A DNA stretch of 64,000 nt from IMG/VR virus record IMGVR_UViG_3300021365_000005, positions 1 through 64,000 of that record. One strand, 5' to 3'. Made by a program: the position numbers and the translations under genes. The stretch comes from a virus. Shown piece by piece: positions 22,932 through 33,260 of this stretch (positions are counted from its first letter, which is position 1; the number at the start of each line of letters is the position of its first letter). The notes under the pieces are model-generated. The model was not told the DNA's origin. It did no database searches and saw nothing but the letters and a program-made list of their open reading frames with translations.

Positions 22932-25322
22932 TCAAGTTCCCATTGGTCCACGAGCAAGAGCTATTACATCTCCAACTTTTTTACCGTCCATATTAACAAC
23001 CCCTGGCTGGCTCATCAAATCTATTAGTATATCAAGCTTTTCTGCTATAACATTGCTACTATCGTCTTTGTCGCCCCCACCTGACATTCCACCTACTATA
23101 GCACCAACTCCCATTGCCAATCCACCTAGTAATAATAGTGTTGGTAGCATAGGGGTAAGCATTACTAAACTTGCCCCAAGAGACATAATTCCTAATCCCA
23201 GGATTCCAAAGGCTAGACCTAATGCTCCTATGCCTGATGCAAGTGGAGTTAGAATAGCCATACCTGCAGCAAGTCCTGTTATAATTTCAACTCCACCTAC
23301 TAGTCCGAATAATCCCACCCCAACTGCTGCTATGCCAAAACCTGCTCCAAGAAGTATTAAGCCATAGCCGATAAGCGGCATAATTGGTATTGCTGGTGCA
23401 AAGGTTAAGAGCCCCATCGATAGTTCGGGTAGCATTGGTATAAGTAACAAGAAGTTTGGTATTGCTTGACTTACAATGTTAAGAGCAATTGCCAACACTA
23501 GCATCGCTCCAGCAACTATCAACATTGCTGCAGCACCTGCAATGATTGCTAGAGCTCCTACTCCTGACATCATGATCGCTCCAAGTAGAGCTACCGCTCC
23601 AACTAGAGCCAACATCGAAACAACTGCCATACCTACTGCCTCCCAACTTACACCCATGAATTCCTGTACTGCTTTAGCAAATACAAATACAGCTGCTGCT
23701 ACTATTACCATTGCTGCAGCACCTTGAATTACCTTTTTCATGTCTATCTTAGCCATGCCTTTCATCATACCTCCACCAGGGGCCTCTTCTCCGCTATCAC
23801 CTAGCTTATCCATTATTTTGTCTTTACCTTTGTCAAGTAGATCCCCACCCTTTTCTTCGACCATGTCTTTTGCTTTATCTTTTAGATTATCTACTGGAGT
23901 TTCTGCCTCTCCGCCGCCGCCAAATAATTTTTTCCAACCTAGGTGAGCTTTTTCTTTAAGCCAATGAGCGACATCCTTTCCATATTGTATACCTTTTTGA
24001 ATGCGTTCTTTTATTCTCATCTTATCCGAGTTTATCAACATATTACTCGTTGCTGATAATAGGCCCATATTATTTTTAATAGTTTTCCCAGTACCCATTA
24101 TAAATCCTAGGGATTTTTCTAAAGTGCTTGCTTCGACAAGTCCCATTTCGATTTGCTTTTCCTTATTTCCAATCATGGATTGCATCGTTGCAAGATCAAC
24201 TCCAGCAGCATCAGCAAGGGCTTTTCTTTGGATAACCGACATTTTTTCAAATTCTGCTATACCACCTACTTGTTGGAGAATAGCTTTAGTTGCTCCTACA
24301 GTATCTCCTGCCATAGCTAGTTGTCTGGCTCTATCAAATGATATTTGGCGACCTAGTAGCACAGAAACCTGCATTTCTTTTTCTATAGATGTTTCTATAT
24401 CCAAAATGCTAGTCATCATCTGATCTATAGCAGCCATATTTGTGCCGAGCTTGGCTGCTTGTACTGCAGTTTCTGCCATCGATAAAGCACTCTTACCACC
24501 AAACTTTGCCATAAATTCTGAGCTTTGAGCCATGTCCTCCATGACCGCTCCTGGAGCAACATTATTAGCTTTGGCTAGGTTGGCTACACTTAGCATCTGG
24601 TGTTTAACCATTTTGTCAGATTCATTAGACATTAATTTAATCTGTTTAAATAGCTTGGCTCCAGATGCTTCTGATACTCCATAAGTTTTGCTCAACTTTG
24701 CAACAGCGACAATTGCTGTTGAAGTTACACTATCGAGGTCGCCCATTTCAGTAGCTAGGGCTCCTGCAGCTTTTGCAGACTTTTCAAAGCCAATACCGAG
24801 TAGCATTCCACTACCAGCTGATTTGGCCAAAGTTCCTGCCATTGCTAGACCCTGGGTGTATGATAGCCCCATTGAGTGCTGGGCATCCATTAAAGTGCCC
24901 GATATCTCCATTGCTTTATCAGCTGCAGCCACCAAAAATAATCCTTTGGCTATTTTAGGGTCAGTGGCTAAATCATAAAATTGTTTAAATTTCTTTTTAA
25001 AGTAATTTATTTTATCATTAATTGCTGCCTGTTGTTCTATTTCTTTCCTTTTTAACTTTAAAGCTTTTTCTGCCATTTTAACAGATTTGTCATTTTCGAG
25101 GGCTTCGCTTTCAAGAAGGGTCTTCATTTCTTTTTCAAGACTTCTAGTCTTTTCCCTTACAGCAAGTAGTGCTTTGGTAGAACTATAGCTCTCCCCCATA
25201 GCTTTGGCCAGATCTCGGACCGTTCCAATTCTTTCTTTTTCAGCATCATTAAGAGCATTAGTTGTCCTGAGATGCTTGTCTAGAGCTGCTTGAGCTTCTT
25301 TATGGGAGGGGTTCTTAGCCAT
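22932..25322 (-). CDS. Tail tape measure protein
   Basis: 796 residues, setting tail length and filling the tube. The first 110 residues are charged coiled coil (LEKEMKTLLESEALEND). Residues about 130-430 form an alpha-helical Ala/Gly-rich region, and residues about 525-760 hold several long hydrophobic segments (VIQGAAAMVIVAAAVFVFA and others), as in tape measure proteins that insert in the host membrane. Position after tube and tail chaperone genes is diagnostic. It would take the role of T4 gp29. A basic, Gly-rich patch lies near residue 460. Confidence 0.88.
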   Translation of the reverse strand: MAKNPSHKEAQAALDKHLRTTNALNDAEKERIGTVRDLAKAMGESYSSTKALLAVREKTRSLEKEMKTLLESEALENDKSVKMAEKALKLKRKEIEQQAAINDKINYFKKKFKQFYDLATDPKIAKGLFLVAAADKAMEISGTLMDAQHSMGLSYTQGLAMAGTLAKSAGSGMLLGIGFEKSAKAAGALATEMGDLDSVTSTAIVAVAKLSKTYGVSEASGAKLFKQIKLMSNESDKMVKHQMLSVANLAKANNVAPGAVMEDMAQSSEFMAKFGGKSALSMAETAVQAAKLGTNMAAIDQMMTSILDIETSIEKEMQVSVLLGRQISFDRARQLAMAGDTVGATKAILQQVGGIAEFEKMSVIQRKALADAAGVDLATMQSMIGNKEKQIEMGLVEASTLEKSLGFIMGTGKTIKNNMGLLSATSNMLINSDKMRIKERIQKGIQYGKDVAHWLKEKAHLGWKKLFGGGGEAETPVDNLKDKAKDMVEEKGGDLLDKGKDKIMDKLGDSGEEAPGGGMMKGMAKIDMKKVIQGAAAMVIVAAAVFVFAKAVQEFMGVSWEAVGMAVVSMLALVGAVALLGAIMMSGVGALAIIAGAAAMLIVAGAMLVLAIALNIVSQAIPNFLLLIPMLPELSMGLLTFAPAIPIMPLIGYGLILLGAGFGIAAVGVGLFGLVGGVEIITGLAAGMAILTPLASGIGALGLAFGILGLGIMSLGASLVMLTPMLPTLLLLGGLAMGVGAIVGGMSGGGDKDDSSNVIAEKLDILIDLMSQPGVVNMDGKKVGDVIALARGPMGT

Positions 25323-25328
25323 CTAACC

Positions 25329-25610
25329 TTAGCTATATTTTTTATTTAGTCTTGCAGCTGCTTTATACGATTTTTTAATATCAGCTTCTTGTTTTCTAAT
25401 TCGATTGACTAATTTTTTTGCTTCGGGAGATTCTGAAGCTAGCGCATCCATTCCGTCAATATACATTTGGGAATTTGTATTTAGAAGGACTCCTTTTATG
25501 TGATCCATAATACTATCAAATATCCCTTCTTGTAATTTATTGGGATGTTTTGCCATTTGGGCCAGAATTACAGGCCTTAATGCTTTTCTAAGTTTTTTCT
25601 CATTATCCAT
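25329..25610 (-). CDS. Small helical protein upstream of tape measure
   Basis: 93 residues, Lys-rich and predicted helical, ending AARLNKKYS; no family recognised. Start supported by AGGAG five nt upstream. It sits between the frameshifted chaperone extension and the tape measure, where tail assembly factors are common, so a chaperone role for the tape measure is plausible. No Cys, no membrane segment. Confidence 0.6.
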   Translation of the reverse strand: MDNEKKLRKALRPVILAQMAKHPNKLQEGIFDSIMDHIKGVLLNTNSQMYIDGMDALASESPEAKKLVNRIRKQEADIKKSYKAAARLNKKYS

Positions 25611-25648: not shown

Positions 25649-25891
25649 CTAATTTGGAGTTTTGGTTGAATTAGGGTATCTTGGAGGAGGAGTTCTAGAC
25701 TTGTTTCCTTTGCTTGCTTTTTCCTGAGCTTCTTTCTCTTTCTTAAGCTGGTCAGATAGGGTCTTATAATAGAAAGTTCTTAGGTATACTGGAAGGGTGT
25801 AGACATCAGTGTGCGTAAATGCACCTTGAGAATGGTATGCTATCTCAAAGATTTGTTTGTGTAGAATGGGCTTGTAATCAAGCCCTAGGCC
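25649..25891 (-). CDS. Frameshift-accessed C-terminal extension of the tail chaperone
   Basis: An 80-codon frame (GLGLDYKPILHK to KTPN) directly beyond the T7 run of the gene upstream. The frame is open only back to a TGA at 25907-25909 and contains no ATG, GTG or TTG, so it cannot be started conventionally. The sequence is protein-like: IFEIAYHSQGAFTHTDVY, then LPVYLRTFYYKTL, then a charged Lys/Glu tail. Similar C-terminal phrases occur in tail chaperone ORFs of other myophages as I recall them. A +1 or -2 slip at 25892-25898 joins it to the 25878-26750 frame. Confidence 0.75.
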   Translation of the reverse strand, partial: GLGLDYKPILHKQIFEIAYHSQGAFTHTDVYTLPVYLRTFYYKTLSDQLKKEKEAQEKASKGNKSRTPPPRYPNSTKTPN

Positions 25892-26750
25892 AAAAAAATT
25901 GGACGTTCATTGGCATCTGAACTGTTGGGTCTTCGTGACCACAGCTTTCACATTCGAAGTCAATCGTCATGTCTACGTCGGGAGATACTGTGTCTAGGTA
26001 CTGACGGAATGCTAGAGAATCTCTAGAAAGAAATTCATTGTCAACAAACGATCTAATTGCCGTTTTGTCTTCTTCACCATCTATAGCTACAATCATATAT
26101 TTAAACCGACTGGTTAATTCATATGTTACTCCGTTGCCACCAACCTTCTTTTTTTTCATTCTTTTTGCTTCTGCTTCAACTAGCTTTTCGTCAGCGTGAG
26201 TTAGAATTTTAAATGTTAAGGTTTTTTTAGCTATTGGAAGTTTAAATGTAAATCTTCCTTCACTGTCTGGGGCATCACCTTCTAGGATTTTATTTTCTAA
26301 AGATGTTAAATCGACAGTTTGTTTGTGTTTAGCGCCACATGCAGGACAGGCCATTTCTACTGGATATTCAGCACCATATCCTAGCACTCTTGCTGCTACC
26401 ATGATTGCATTTTTATCGCCAGTAACTAAGTCGTTATAGTTTACAGATTTACCTTCACCATTGCTTACGATCAGAGCTCTAAGTAGTGTGTCAATAACTA
26501 AGCCTTTTTGGATCAAATTAGAAGATGTTAGGATATCTTCTTCTTTAGCAGTCATATACTTCATTTCAACTTTACCTGATGATAGTGCACTATTTTCAGG
26601 ATATAGGGCTCCTCCACTTGGGAGATCTATAATTTCTGTTGGGAATTTAGACTCTTTTATTAGGGTCGTATTAGACTCGTTTGCAAGTTGGTGCTTTAGG
26701 TCGTCTGTGGAAAGGGCTTTGCCCGGGTAATCGTCTGTAACTTTATTCAT
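25878..26750 (-). CDS. Tail assembly chaperone / baseplate protein, gp26/gp51-like, with Zn ribbon
   Basis: 290 residues in the unshifted frame, ending QFFWPRA. The N-terminal third has EIIDLPSGGALYP, typical of the T4 gp26/gp51 baseplate family. Two CxxC pairs, CPAC (about residue 134) and CESC (near residue 270), could bind one Zn. Its place between tube and tape measure is where tail assembly chaperones with programmed frameshifts sit in many phages. About 287 residues plus the 80-residue extension would give a fusion near 367 residues. Preceded by a terminator and box. The family label is from memory; the locus role is inferred. Confidence 0.7.
   Translation of the reverse strand: MNKVTDDYPGKALSTDDLKHQLANESNTTLIKESKFPTEIIDLPSGGALYPENSALSSGKVEMKYMTAKEEDILTSSNLIQKGLVIDTLLRALIVSNGEGKSVNYNDLVTGDKNAIMVAARVLGYGAEYPVEMACPACGAKHKQTVDLTSLENKILEGDAPDSEGRFTFKLPIAKKTLTFKILTHADEKLVEAEAKRMKKKKVGGNGVTYELTSRFKYMIVAIDGEEDKTAIRSFVDNEFLSRDSLAFRQYLDTVSPDVDMTIDFECESCGHEDPTVQMPMNVQFFWPRA
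25892..25898 (-). promoter_or_regulatory. Slippery T7 run, probable programmed frameshift site
   Basis: Seven T on the coding strand, read TTT TTT TGG in the upstream frame. Slipping the second Phe tRNA by +1 or -2 keeps perfect UUU pairing and enters the 80-codon extension. A -1 slip meets a stop after two codons (TTG GCC TAG). Confidence 0.7.
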
Positions 26751-26840: not shown

Positions 26841-27335
26841 TTAGTATTGTAAGATAGCGTGATCGAATCTAATGTCTAGAGAAATCATTAGAGGAGTTCC
26901 GTCCTCTTCATATGATAAATCTCCAAATGTTGCTTTTGTTATAAAAGCACCTTTAAGATTCCACTCTTCAACCTTATCACCTACTGGACCTAACACATTA
27001 ATTGTTATATCCTTTTTATACATATCAGAATAGCCATTTCGGCCAGTAACTGATTCGTGATGTAGTCTTACCCATTCCATAACGGCTTGTGCTCCAGACG
27101 GAACAATTGGATCGTAAAGTTCCATGCCTGATATTGCATCCCATTCTGACCTACCTTTGATGTATCTTGTAGTGTTCATATGCTTAATTGCAGTTTCACC
27201 ATTACTAATACTAGGCCTTGGGCACTTGCGTATAAGATATGATGGTATTCCGTCAACATACATGATAAACCTATTTGCAACCTTAGGTTCAAAATTAGTG
27301 TGCATCAGTTCTGTTGGGTCTATTAAATTTGCCAT
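26841..27335 (-). CDS. 19: Tail tube protein, gp19-like
   Basis: 164 residues; forms the inner tube of the contractile tail. NRFIMYVDGIPSYLIR, SEWDAISGMELYDP and the C-terminal PLMISLDIRFDHAILQY fit gp19-type tube proteins (T4 gp19 has 163). It directly follows sheath, as in T4. AAGGAG precedes the start and a GATATTTATA box lies just upstream; a strong terminator follows, which would allow high separate expression. Confidence 0.93.
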   Translation of the reverse strand: MANLIDPTELMHTNFEPKVANRFIMYVDGIPSYLIRKCPRPSISNGETAIKHMNTTRYIKGRSEWDAISGMELYDPIVPSGAQAVMEWVRLHHESVTGRNGYSDMYKKDITINVLGPVGDKVEEWNLKGAFITKATFGDLSYEEDGTPLMISLDIRFDHAILQY

Positions 27336-27363: not shown

Positions 27364-29466
27364 TTAGTCTTCGAAAGTTGCGCCAGTTGGCATGATGTTA
27401 AAGTCAACTACGATAAACTCTGCAGCTTTTGCAGGCTGTAAGAAAATCTCTCCTTTCATGATATTTCTATCGATTAGATCTGGAGTGTTGTTAGACTCAT
27501 CCATAACTACTTTAAATGCATATAGACCTTGGTTTTGTTGAACAGATTCCATATATGGATTAACTGAACCTAGGAATCTATTGCGAGTAGCTGCTGTGTT
27601 GTTCTCGAATACAAGGTATTTAGAAGTACTAGCTATGAATTTCTTAAGATTGATTAATAATCGACGTACATTCACACGATCAAGAGCAGAAGCTTTCTTT
27701 TGAAGAGTCTTTTGACCCCATACGCAAACGCCTTCTCCTGGGAATGTTGCTAGAGGATTAACATTGTCCTCGTATAAAGTGTCACGGTTTGCATGTGTTA
27801 GCTTACGCTCTGCTTGAACTACAGTTTCTAAACCACCTCGGTTAAGTCCTGCAGGAGCATACCATTCAGCAGCAACTTTATCATTAAAGGCATAAATACC
27901 AGGAATGAGAGTTGATGGTGGAACCCAGCAATATTTGCCATTTGCATTTGTTTGTACCCAAGGCCAATACATAGCTGCATAGCTTGTATCAAGGCCTGAA
28001 CCTTCAGTGGTAGCAGTTGAAATGTTTTGGGTAGCTAGTGTTGGATCTACTAAAGCAAAGCAATCTCCTCTTGTTTCACAAGCAGTAATTAACTGATCTG
28101 TTAGGGTTTTATGACCTGAAGTATTTAGACCTGGCATTGAAATTAAATTAATATCATACTCATCGGCATTACTTAATAAGCTTATAGCAGTTTGATATGA
28201 TGTTAGGCCTTTTGCAGCAACCGTTGGATCTAATCCTTGAACATTATTATTTGCGATATCTCCAAAAAATGCTGCTCCTGCTGTTTGACCATCCCCATCT
28301 GCTCCAGTTGAAAAAGATCCTGAAGATGCCTTAGGTAAATTCTTAAGATTTACAGATGCGGTGTTTCCATTTGCATCAAGGTAGTCTGGTATTTCATTAA
28401 CAGAAGATACGTAGACATATTTAGACTTATTTTGAAAGTTACCACGTGGCTGAAGGTATTTCTGAGTTCCATCCGTTGCTATTTCTTGGTATTGATCCCC
28501 GATCATTTTACTAATAAAGTTTGGCTGATTTGGATCAAGACTTAGGCCTGACCAAGTCTCTAAAATAGTTTTGCGTTTAGATGTATCATTACCTTGACGA
28601 ATCAATAGTGTAAATGTACCTTTTTTCTCGCTAACGTTTGAAATTTCATATCTTAAATTATCACTAGATCCATTTGTTAATATGTTATTAGTTGTTTCTG
28701 CACCAGTAGAGTTTTGTGTTGCACCGTCTGCAAATGTATTAAGAACAAATGGAGTTACTCCTGAAGCTGTTGAATTGGTACCTCCTGCAAGTGCGATTTT
28801 ACCAACAAAAGTTTCTGGGGTAGCCGCTGCTGATGCAGATACTTCCCAACCATTATATGCCGTTCCAGCTGCTGAACCAGAAAGCTCGAATTTCGATGAA
28901 AGTCCTATTGCTGTTAGATCTACTCGAGCGTTACTATTAACTGCAAGTGCTAAATTAGATGCTACTGTTGCAGCATCTGAACCACTTTGGAAGTAGTCAA
29001 TAGAAGCGTCTTCAGAGTCGCCTCCAGCAGAAGTACTTGAAATAAATGTTGTTACTTCACCTGAAGGGGACACGAACTTATATCTATCACCTAATGCAGG
29101 TGTTGCTACTGTGTAATGACCTACTGCGTAAGCAAGTCCAGTAATAGATCCTGATGGTGTAACTGATGCAGTTGCATTTGAATAACCATCTCCAAGAATT
29201 CTAACTACGGTTAAAGCACCTGAATGCTTTAGATATTCTCTTGCTGAGATTGAGGTTAAGTACTCTGCTGAAGTACTACCAGATATAAAGGTGTCTCCAA
29301 ATAGCTGAACGTATTCTGGATAGCTTGATACTTTTGTTGGTATTAAAGCAGGACCTTTGACTGTAGGACCTATAATGGCTCCACCAATTTCACCAATACC
29401 TTGTGGTACGAATGACAAATCATTTTCTTGCGTAAATACACCGGGGCTTATTATTTTTTCAGCCAT
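27364..29466 (-). CDS. 18: Tail sheath protein, gp18-like
   Basis: 700 residues; contractile sheath subunit. The N-terminus ISPGVFTQENDLSF and GAIIGPTVKGPAL are characteristic of gp18. The middle (about 90-260) is Ala/Ser/Gly-rich and probably surface exposed, the C-terminal domain has RFLGSVNPYMESVQQNQG and DLIDRNIMKGEIFLQPAKAA, the conserved sheath core. Length is near T4 gp18 (659). TAGGAG precedes the ATG. Confidence 0.96.
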   Translation of the reverse strand: MAEKIISPGVFTQENDLSFVPQGIGEIGGAIIGPTVKGPALIPTKVSSYPEYVQLFGDTFISGSTSAEYLTSISAREYLKHSGALTVVRILGDGYSNATASVTPSGSITGLAYAVGHYTVATPALGDRYKFVSPSGEVTTFISSTSAGGDSEDASIDYFQSGSDAATVASNLALAVNSNARVDLTAIGLSSKFELSGSAAGTAYNGWEVSASAAATPETFVGKIALAGGTNSTASGVTPFVLNTFADGATQNSTGAETTNNILTNGSSDNLRYEISNVSEKKGTFTLLIRQGNDTSKRKTILETWSGLSLDPNQPNFISKMIGDQYQEIATDGTQKYLQPRGNFQNKSKYVYVSSVNEIPDYLDANGNTASVNLKNLPKASSGSFSTGADGDGQTAGAAFFGDIANNNVQGLDPTVAAKGLTSYQTAISLLSNADEYDINLISMPGLNTSGHKTLTDQLITACETRGDCFALVDPTLATQNISTATTEGSGLDTSYAAMYWPWVQTNANGKYCWVPPSTLIPGIYAFNDKVAAEWYAPAGLNRGGLETVVQAERKLTHANRDTLYEDNVNPLATFPGEGVCVWGQKTLQKKASALDRVNVRRLLINLKKFIASTSKYLVFENNTAATRNRFLGSVNPYMESVQQNQGLYAFKVVMDESNNTPDLIDRNIMKGEIFLQPAKAAEFIVVDFNIMPTGATFED

Positions 29467-32258: not shown

Positions 32259-32465
32259 TTATGGTCCAGTGGAAATTCTAATAACCCCTTGATATGCATT
32301 ACTAACCCCTTGGGTGTCTACCCATAAAGCTCCTAACTCTCCTGGATCTGAGATGGGTAGATCCTTAAAATTAATCTTTCCGGTTATAGTAAGAAACTCT
32401 GAAATGTGTAGAGTCTTAATATCTGCAGCATTGCCGCTATGAATTATTTTTTTCCAAGTACTCAT
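32259..32465 (-). CDS. Small WKK-tag protein
   Basis: 68 residues, beginning MSTWKKIIHSGNAADIKTLH, the tag shared by five genes in this cluster. The remainder (FLTITGKINFKDLPISDPGE and LWVDTQGV) resembles the end segment of the 33264 protein. It may be a minimal adhesin tip or a cap using the tag to bind the same site. The start is four bases from the upstream stop. Confidence 0.65.
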   Translation of the reverse strand: MSTWKKIIHSGNAADIKTLHISEFLTITGKINFKDLPISDPGELGALWVDTQGVSNAYQGVIRISTGP

Positions 32466-32468
32466 AGC

Positions 32469-33260
32469 TTACATAGTATATCCAAAAGGATTATTAGGAC
32501 TAGCATCAGTCCCGACATTTAGGAAAGTAGATCCTCCCCATATGCCTCCGGTTGTTTGAGTAAAATAGAGATATACGAATATATCAAAGTAGGTATAAGG
32601 AAAAGTGCTGGCGTTGTATACCGGAGGATTTGAATTCTCTATGTAGGAGTATACTGCTGTGAGATCCCCTAAAAGCCAGAACTCAGAGTGAAACTGATGC
32701 ATTGGTCCAAATTCCCCATAACGAGCAGCTACAGACTCCGGAGTAACGTATGTGCCAGCATCATTCGCCCAGTCATAAACTGGGTCTGTGAAATCTATAG
32801 GAGGTCTGTTGTCGTCGTCAAGCGATAAGAACTCTCCATATTCTACAAGGAAACCAAGTAAATCGGCAGAACCAATCTCACCATCGCCGTTGAAATCGAA
32901 ATTAGGGGTATAACCAGATTCCCCATCAGCAGTACCATATGCTATAAGGAAGCCAAGTAAGTCGGCAGCTCCAATTCCCCCATCTCCGTTGAAGTCAAAA
33001 GCGTAGGCTTGCCATGGAATATAATAGGGAGATATTGTCACAGGATCGTTGGAAATTCTCACCATTACATGTTGGTCAGCAGACGACTTCATTAAACTCC
33101 CTATAGGCAGGTCGAAGTCTGAAGTTGGTAGACCGTTGAATTGAACGGAAGAACCTTCTATCTGAAGAGATGCAGTGTCTGAACTTGAAGGACCTGATAC
33201 TATGACCGAAGCCGCTTCAGTGCTGCTGCCACTTATCATTAATTGTTTCCAGGTTGCCAT
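32469..33260 (-). CDS. WKK-tag protein with two dockerin-like Ca-binding repeats
   Basis: 263 residues. It begins MATWKQLMISGSS, a divergent form of the cluster tag. Residues 88-109 (DFNGDGGIGAADLLGFLIAY) and 121-142 (DFNGDGEIGSADLLGFLVEY) are two DxNxDGxIxxxD loops followed by helices with 33-residue spacing, as in type I dockerin. The C-terminal part (DWANDAGTYVTPESVA, then Tyr-rich) is unlike the other tagged proteins. Probably a virion adhesin; the Ca loops may bind a host or fibre partner. A cohesin-type partner is not seen here. Confidence 0.65.
   Translation of the reverse strand: MATWKQLMISGSSTEAASVIVSGPSSSDTASLQIEGSSVQFNGLPTSDFDLPIGSLMKSSADQHVMVRISNDPVTISPYYIPWQAYAFDFNGDGGIGAADLLGFLIAYGTADGESGYTPNFDFNGDGEIGSADLLGFLVEYGEFLSLDDDNRPPIDFTDPVYDWANDAGTYVTPESVAARYGEFGPMHQFHSEFWLLGDLTAVYSYIENSNPPVYNASTFPYTYFDIFVYLYFTQTTGGIWGGSTFLNVGTDASPNNPFGYTM

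Follow-up and report, generated by a model that had tools for sequence, protein, structure and literature searches.

We found that the window (the whole 64,000-nucleotide stretch of viral DNA analysed here) carries a tail assembly chaperone gene of T4 type, and we consider it likely, from comparative sequence evidence, that a programmed +1 shift at UUU_Y in this gene yields both a short product (TAC-N) and a long product (TAC-NC). The elements of the locus are the following:

26750-25878, minus strand: zero-frame gene for the short chaperone form (TAC-N), 290 aa from ATG to TGA, assigned to PF12322 (T4_baseplate) and phrog_150
25909-25907, minus strand: TGA that closes the +1 frame 5' of the U-run
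25898-25892, minus strand: slip site UUU UUU U (within UUU UUU UGG CCU), with two zero-frame UUU codons and a U after each
25652-25891, minus strand: +1-frame extension (TAC-C), 80 codons, without a start codon of its own
25885-25868, minus strand: stem-loop GGGCTTG-ATTA-CAAGCCC, a perfect 7-bp stem that begins 6 nt past U7 (after GGCCTA) and overlaps the zero-frame stop
25651-25649, minus strand: TAG stop of the long product TAC-NC (366 aa if the shift is +1)

The zero-frame product matched PF12322 (E 2.5e-14; 53.9 bits against a cut-off of 24.5) and phrog_150, a baseplate hub family (E 1.9e-16), and contained two CxxC pairs. Its gene ends with CAA TTT TTT TGG CCT AGG GCT TGA (Q F F W P R A stop), the TGA at 25880-25878 standing two codons past Trp-Pro; the last of the seven T belongs to the Trp codon, and the terminal Pro-Arg-Ala follows at once, not three codons later as the original prediction had it. 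The +1 frame reads ACG TCC AAT TTT TTT GGC and stays open for the 80 codons beyond the U-run. Because this frame is closed by the TGA at 25909-25907, the shift must occur between there and the zero-frame stop. We detected no ATG, GTG or TTG in the 80 extension codons of the window, and the positions of the run, of the second frame and of the upstream TGA agreed with those predicted. A -1 slip had been said to meet a stop within two codons, and at the window's run it indeed reads TTG GCC TAG; the extension lies here in the +1 frame and not, as in other T4-like TACs, in the -1 frame.

As is characteristic of a T4-like TAC, the gene is placed between the genes for the tail tube and the putative tape measure protein, with these neighbours:

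27364-29466, minus strand: tail sheath protein, upstream of the tube gene (PF04984, E 3.8e-15; PF17482, E 5.1e-11)
26841-27335, minus strand: tail tube protein (gp19-like), upstream neighbour (PF06841, E 3.5e-5, under the curated cut-off)
22932-25322, minus strand: putative tape measure protein, downstream neighbour, 796 aa, named from its position, length and hydrophobic segments

The 796-aa putative tape measure protein had no family match; an annotated tape measure stands at the corresponding place in two relatives (L082 and L086), and the order tube-TAC-tape measure recurs in annotated relatives. The gap between the chaperone and tape measure genes also holds a 93-aa ORF of no known family (25329-25610, minus strand), and small ORFs were present at the matching place in Flavobacterium phage immuto, SP-15 and Mel-JY01. 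Elsewhere in the tail region, a 263-aa protein (32469-33260, minus strand) contained two calcium-binding repeats of the dockerin/EF-hand type (DFNGDGGIGAADLL..., DFNGDGEIGSADLL...); such repeats (PF00404, E 7.8e-5) are unusual in a phage structural region. Finally, five adjacent ORFs on the minus strand between 32259 and 37777 (at 32259, 32469, 33264, 33859 and 35942) had in common an N-terminal motif of approximately W-K-[KQ]-[ILV]-[IM]-x-x-S-G, and 4 out of the 5 had no Pfam match; the motif suggests that they are paralogous tail or fibre proteins sharing their N-terminal portion.

The original prediction proposed searching relatives for the same split at the same place, and such a split was found almost throughout. 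The first scan recovered the extension in the +1 frame in all 69 relatives in which both parts were visible, at TTTTTTTGGCCT. Scans that used other members as queries, with search patterns mostly distant from the slip site, brought this to 187 out of 189 loci, with the other 2 in the -1 frame; the final count was 338 +1-frame extensions among 339 related loci with both parts, a recurrence far in excess of chance, and no continuous in-frame fusion of the two parts was found among the 339. The identical 12-mer UUUUUUUGGCCU (TTTTTTTGGCCT) was present in 144 of 207 distinct haplotypes, followed by TTTTTTTACCCT (39 haplotypes), TTTTTTTTCCCT (7) and TTTCTTTGGCCT (7), and it was retained though protein identity drops to about 45%. 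Both Phe codons were UUU in 88 of 97 clusters, against 73.6% UUU among the Phe codons elsewhere in these genes (nominal P about 5e-15, relatedness ignored); since the clusters are not phylogenetically independent, these counts overstate the number of independent events. A programmed frameshift site is marked by two open frames that overlap and by a slippery site that is conserved where the zero frame ends, and both were observed. The +1-frame arrangement was also present in isolated phages, namely Flavobacterium phage immuto, Microcystis phage Mel-JY01, Bacillus phage SP-15, Listeria phage LIS04, Streptococcus phage GXN1 and Rhodothermus phage RM378, while a scan of viral contigs with the RM378 query returned RM378 itself only. 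In practice annotation overlooks the extension, which in the isolates inspected either had no entry or appeared as a hypothetical gene of its own. The extension lay in the -1 frame in a distant locus (L089) and in the huge-phage record LR756511, the latter at TTTTTTC. In two members (L184 and L185) the zero-frame tail beyond the U-run reached about 12 codons, far longer than in the others.

The substitutions in the extension point to purifying selection in the shifted frame, where the codon-position bias is strong: compared with the relative L003, the differences at codon positions 1, 2 and 3 numbered 1, 1 and 16, with dN 0.026 and dS 0.72. In profile comparisons, the window-type +1-frame extensions matched the -1-frame extensions of T4-like phages (hhalign E 1.3e-5, probability 81%), and the C-terminus of T4 gp51 matched the same -1-frame extensions (E 1e-10, probability 97%); window-type extensions set directly against gp51 alone gave no significant match (P 0.07). 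Through the intermediate -1-type sequences, the window extension is by profile similarity homologous to the gp51 C-terminal domain, which is the C-terminal part expected of a T4-like TAC, where it is fused in the long form only. This homology to gp51 and to the -1-frame extensions of seven isolates identifies the PF12322 gene, by comparison, as a TAC-N/TAC-NC tail assembly chaperone, a family known before from T4-like phages. The best Pfam lead for the extension of the window and that of L043 was DUF6760 (PF20546), with E 0.098 and 0.024, both under the cut-off; a search for DUF6760 in six genomes gave no match, and the controls were likewise without a match. DUF6760 may be the extension domain as it is annotated in other places, where it forms a protein by itself.

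The 2022 abstract by Vladimirov et al. is said to describe genes 26 and 51 as TAC-N and TAC-NC, with conserved frameshifting in several T4-like groups. The window gene resembles the T4-like TACs in its PF12322 family, its short and long forms and its split at a Phe-Phe U-run. We found one PF12322 gene in each of P-SSM2, S-PM2, HTVC008M, Cr30, phiM12, Vi01 and KVP40, and two in T4. The seven isolates have a -1-frame extension at the position of the window's split, mostly at (N)UUUUUC or (N)UUUUUU (e.g. AGT TTT TTC GTA TAA in P-SSM2), whereas the window's clade uses the +1 frame and, in the window's subclade, has a stem-loop as well. T4 gp26 covers positions 14-235 of the 282 in phrog_150 and gp51 covers 13-280, so gp26 corresponds to the short form and gp51 to the long form; in T4, however, they are two separate genes on opposite strands without a frameshift, whereas the window has one gene with a probable shift. 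Lambda gpG/gpGT and Mu also have a frameshifted chaperone upstream of the tape measure gene with a low-level long form, a likeness of arrangement, with no sequence similarity expected; lambda shifts by -1 and Mu by -2, in contrast to the +1 frame of the window. More generally, tailed phages vary in the direction of the shift in this chaperone, which may be -1, -2 or +1 (Atkins et al. 2016, PMC5009743). Short and long chaperone forms were also proposed, by analogy, for gp143/gp144 of 0305phi8-36 (PMC2147016), which we liken to the window by description; these are two paralogous genes without a shift, unlike the window gene.

The stem-loop after the slip site was missed by the original prediction. 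Folding of the 66-nt stretch that holds it gave a z of -2.69. A stem of at least 6 pairs at exactly the window's offset was present in 20 of 97 clusters, and the same geometry at 39 other offsets in 0 to 4 clusters (8 at one offset). The arms co-vary (GGGCTTG/CAAGCCC, GGGCCTA/TAGGCCC, GGGTCTG/CAGGCCC and GCGTCTA/TAGACGC): in 24 aligned members, picked for having the stem or a near version of it, 93.8% of the cells pair and compensatory changes on both sides occur at 5 of the 7 pairs, and 0 of 500 shuffles matched the observed pairing or covariation score. Among the 207 haplotypes the stem-loop occurred in 38, all with U7 GG, and was not found in sister subclades; downstream structure across all clusters was weak (mean z -0.68), the signal being limited to the window's subclade. 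An Rfam search gave no relevant match. From its position and conservation, the stem-loop probably stimulates the slip in this subclade.

Whether the shift is +1 or -2 had been left open. Both directions do reach the extension frame on U7, as predicted, but the variant sites of relatives favour +1. An in-frame UUU followed by Y, at which tRNA-Phe is able to re-pair after a +1 slip, was present in 104 of 106 +1-frame clusters (80% clustering); considering tRNA-Phe re-pairing, 93 of these 104 also permit -2, 11 permit +1 only and none permits -2 only. The variant sites comprised UUC UUU U (L091, L095, L098 and L144, with UUC UUU UGG in L095 and L144 and UUC UUU UAC in L098), UUC UUU CGU (L087 and L176) and UUU CUA UUC (L084). 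Since these sites re-pair after +1 and not after -2, and are without a long homopolymer, the most convincing reading is that tRNA-Phe slips by +1 at UUU_Y. The aligned junction length is constant if the shift is +1, and in bacteria UUU_Ynn is especially prone to +1 frameshifting (PMC5009743). Two clusters (L188 and L199) are without UUU_Y and require another site. In the SP-15-like contigs L188, L192, L195 and L199 we observed TTA TTT AAT CCC AGT or a similar sequence, then the zero-frame stop, with the extension in the +1 frame and no UUU_Y; CCC_A is perhaps a candidate slip site there.

A -2 shift would involve the same gene and products, with the P-site tRNA-Phe on the second UUU moving back two bases within U7, the stem-loop helping, and one extra Phe in the long form (QFFFGLG). 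Downstream stem-loops are more typical of backward slips, the Mu counterpart uses -2, and a shorter spacer raises the ratio of -2 to -1 at the HIV site (PMC5009743). Moreover, all hairpin haplotypes (38/38) have an unbroken U7 with no variant site, so that within the window's subclade -2 is disfavoured solely by comparison with its sisters. Relatives whose site is UUC_UUU or UUU_CUA nevertheless use the same frame, although a -2 slip there would allow no re-pairing, and tandem -2 slippage needs U's 5' of the run, where AA, AG, AC, GG etc. stand instead; overall, we regard a -2 shift as unlikely. Similarly doubtful is a combination in which one orthologous gene would use three slip directions, minor changes at a single Phe-Phe U-run having turned one into another: cyanophage-like T4 relatives would shift by -1, most of the window's clade by +1 at UUU_Y, and the window's subclade by -2, with its stem-loop 6 nt past the run.

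Transcriptional slippage, in which RNA polymerase would omit one U or add two in the T7 run to give mixed mRNAs, would fit the homopolymeric run and its conservation in most loci, but it is very improbable given the variant sites without a long homopolymer: the same frame is reached from TTCTTTT, TTCTTTC, TTTCTTT and TTTCTATTC (runs of three to four). It also leaves the conservation of GGCCU and of the stem-loop unexplained, and seven T is short for efficient transcriptional slippage. We give slightly less credence still to the extension being a separate small gene, translated from its own start or by coupling at the zero-frame stop. The annotation of Mel-JY01 does present it as a separate gene, and some ATG, GTG or TTG was found in the permissive stretch scanned in 66 of 97 clusters; against this, 31 of the 97 clusters have none and neither does the window's extension, the slip site is conserved and not a start, and T4 gp51 has the C-terminal domain fused to the N-part. 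An independent start for the extension had been named as evidence that would count against a shift, and relatives had no conserved start. The original prediction also warned that a homopolymer error could mimic the arrangement, and one extra T splitting a continuous gene would indeed look identical in a single genome. The same split, however, recurred at 338 loci on many separately assembled contigs, in the isolates SP-15, RM378, Flavobacterium phage immuto and Mel-JY01, and at sites without a long run, and this recurrence excludes a sequencing error for practical purposes, making it the least credible explanation of all; six T in one continuous frame had been named as the other counter-evidence, to be sought in reads, and no relative showed it.

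The programmed shift into the +1 frame that the original prediction proposed is thus supported by the conservation of slip site and frame, by purifying selection, by the location of the gene next to those for tube and tape measure, with one on either side, and by the gp51 C-terminal homology. Under the +1 reading, the majority of ribosomes would produce the 290-aa TAC-N, while a minority would pause at UUU UUU UGG CCU, where the P-site tRNA-Phe would slip by +1 (at UUU_Y, re-pairing with UUY), probably promoted in the window's subclade by the 7-bp stem-loop. The slipped ribosomes would read 80 more codons and make TAC-NC (...NVQFF-GLGLDYK...). On the model of lambda gpG/gpGT, the tape measure protein would then be covered by many copies of the short form and a few of the long one, whose extension would bring in the tube protein for a lambda-like loading onto the tape measure.

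A frameshifted tail chaperone is, as a kind, already known. The original prediction regarded the extension of this rule to the gp26/gp51 family as new, but Vladimirov, Gautam and Davidson had identified TACs of T4-like phages in 2022 (doi 10.1016/j.virol.2021.11.003), according to passages of two other articles (PMC12846349, PMC10885494). Three points may be new: a large clade of the PF12322 family with the extension in the +1 frame, the support that comparison of sites gives to UUU_Y, and the stem-loop with its covariation. The clade takes in the Flavobacterium, Rhodothermus, Microcystis and SP-15-like isolates, and its natural site variants at one orthologous position make the choice of slip direction testable. 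The T4-like tail chaperone appears in three genetic forms, one chaperone being reached through two genes in T4, a -1 shift in cyanophages and others, and a +1-frame shift in the window's clade; it seems that the short and long forms are kept, and not the way of making them.
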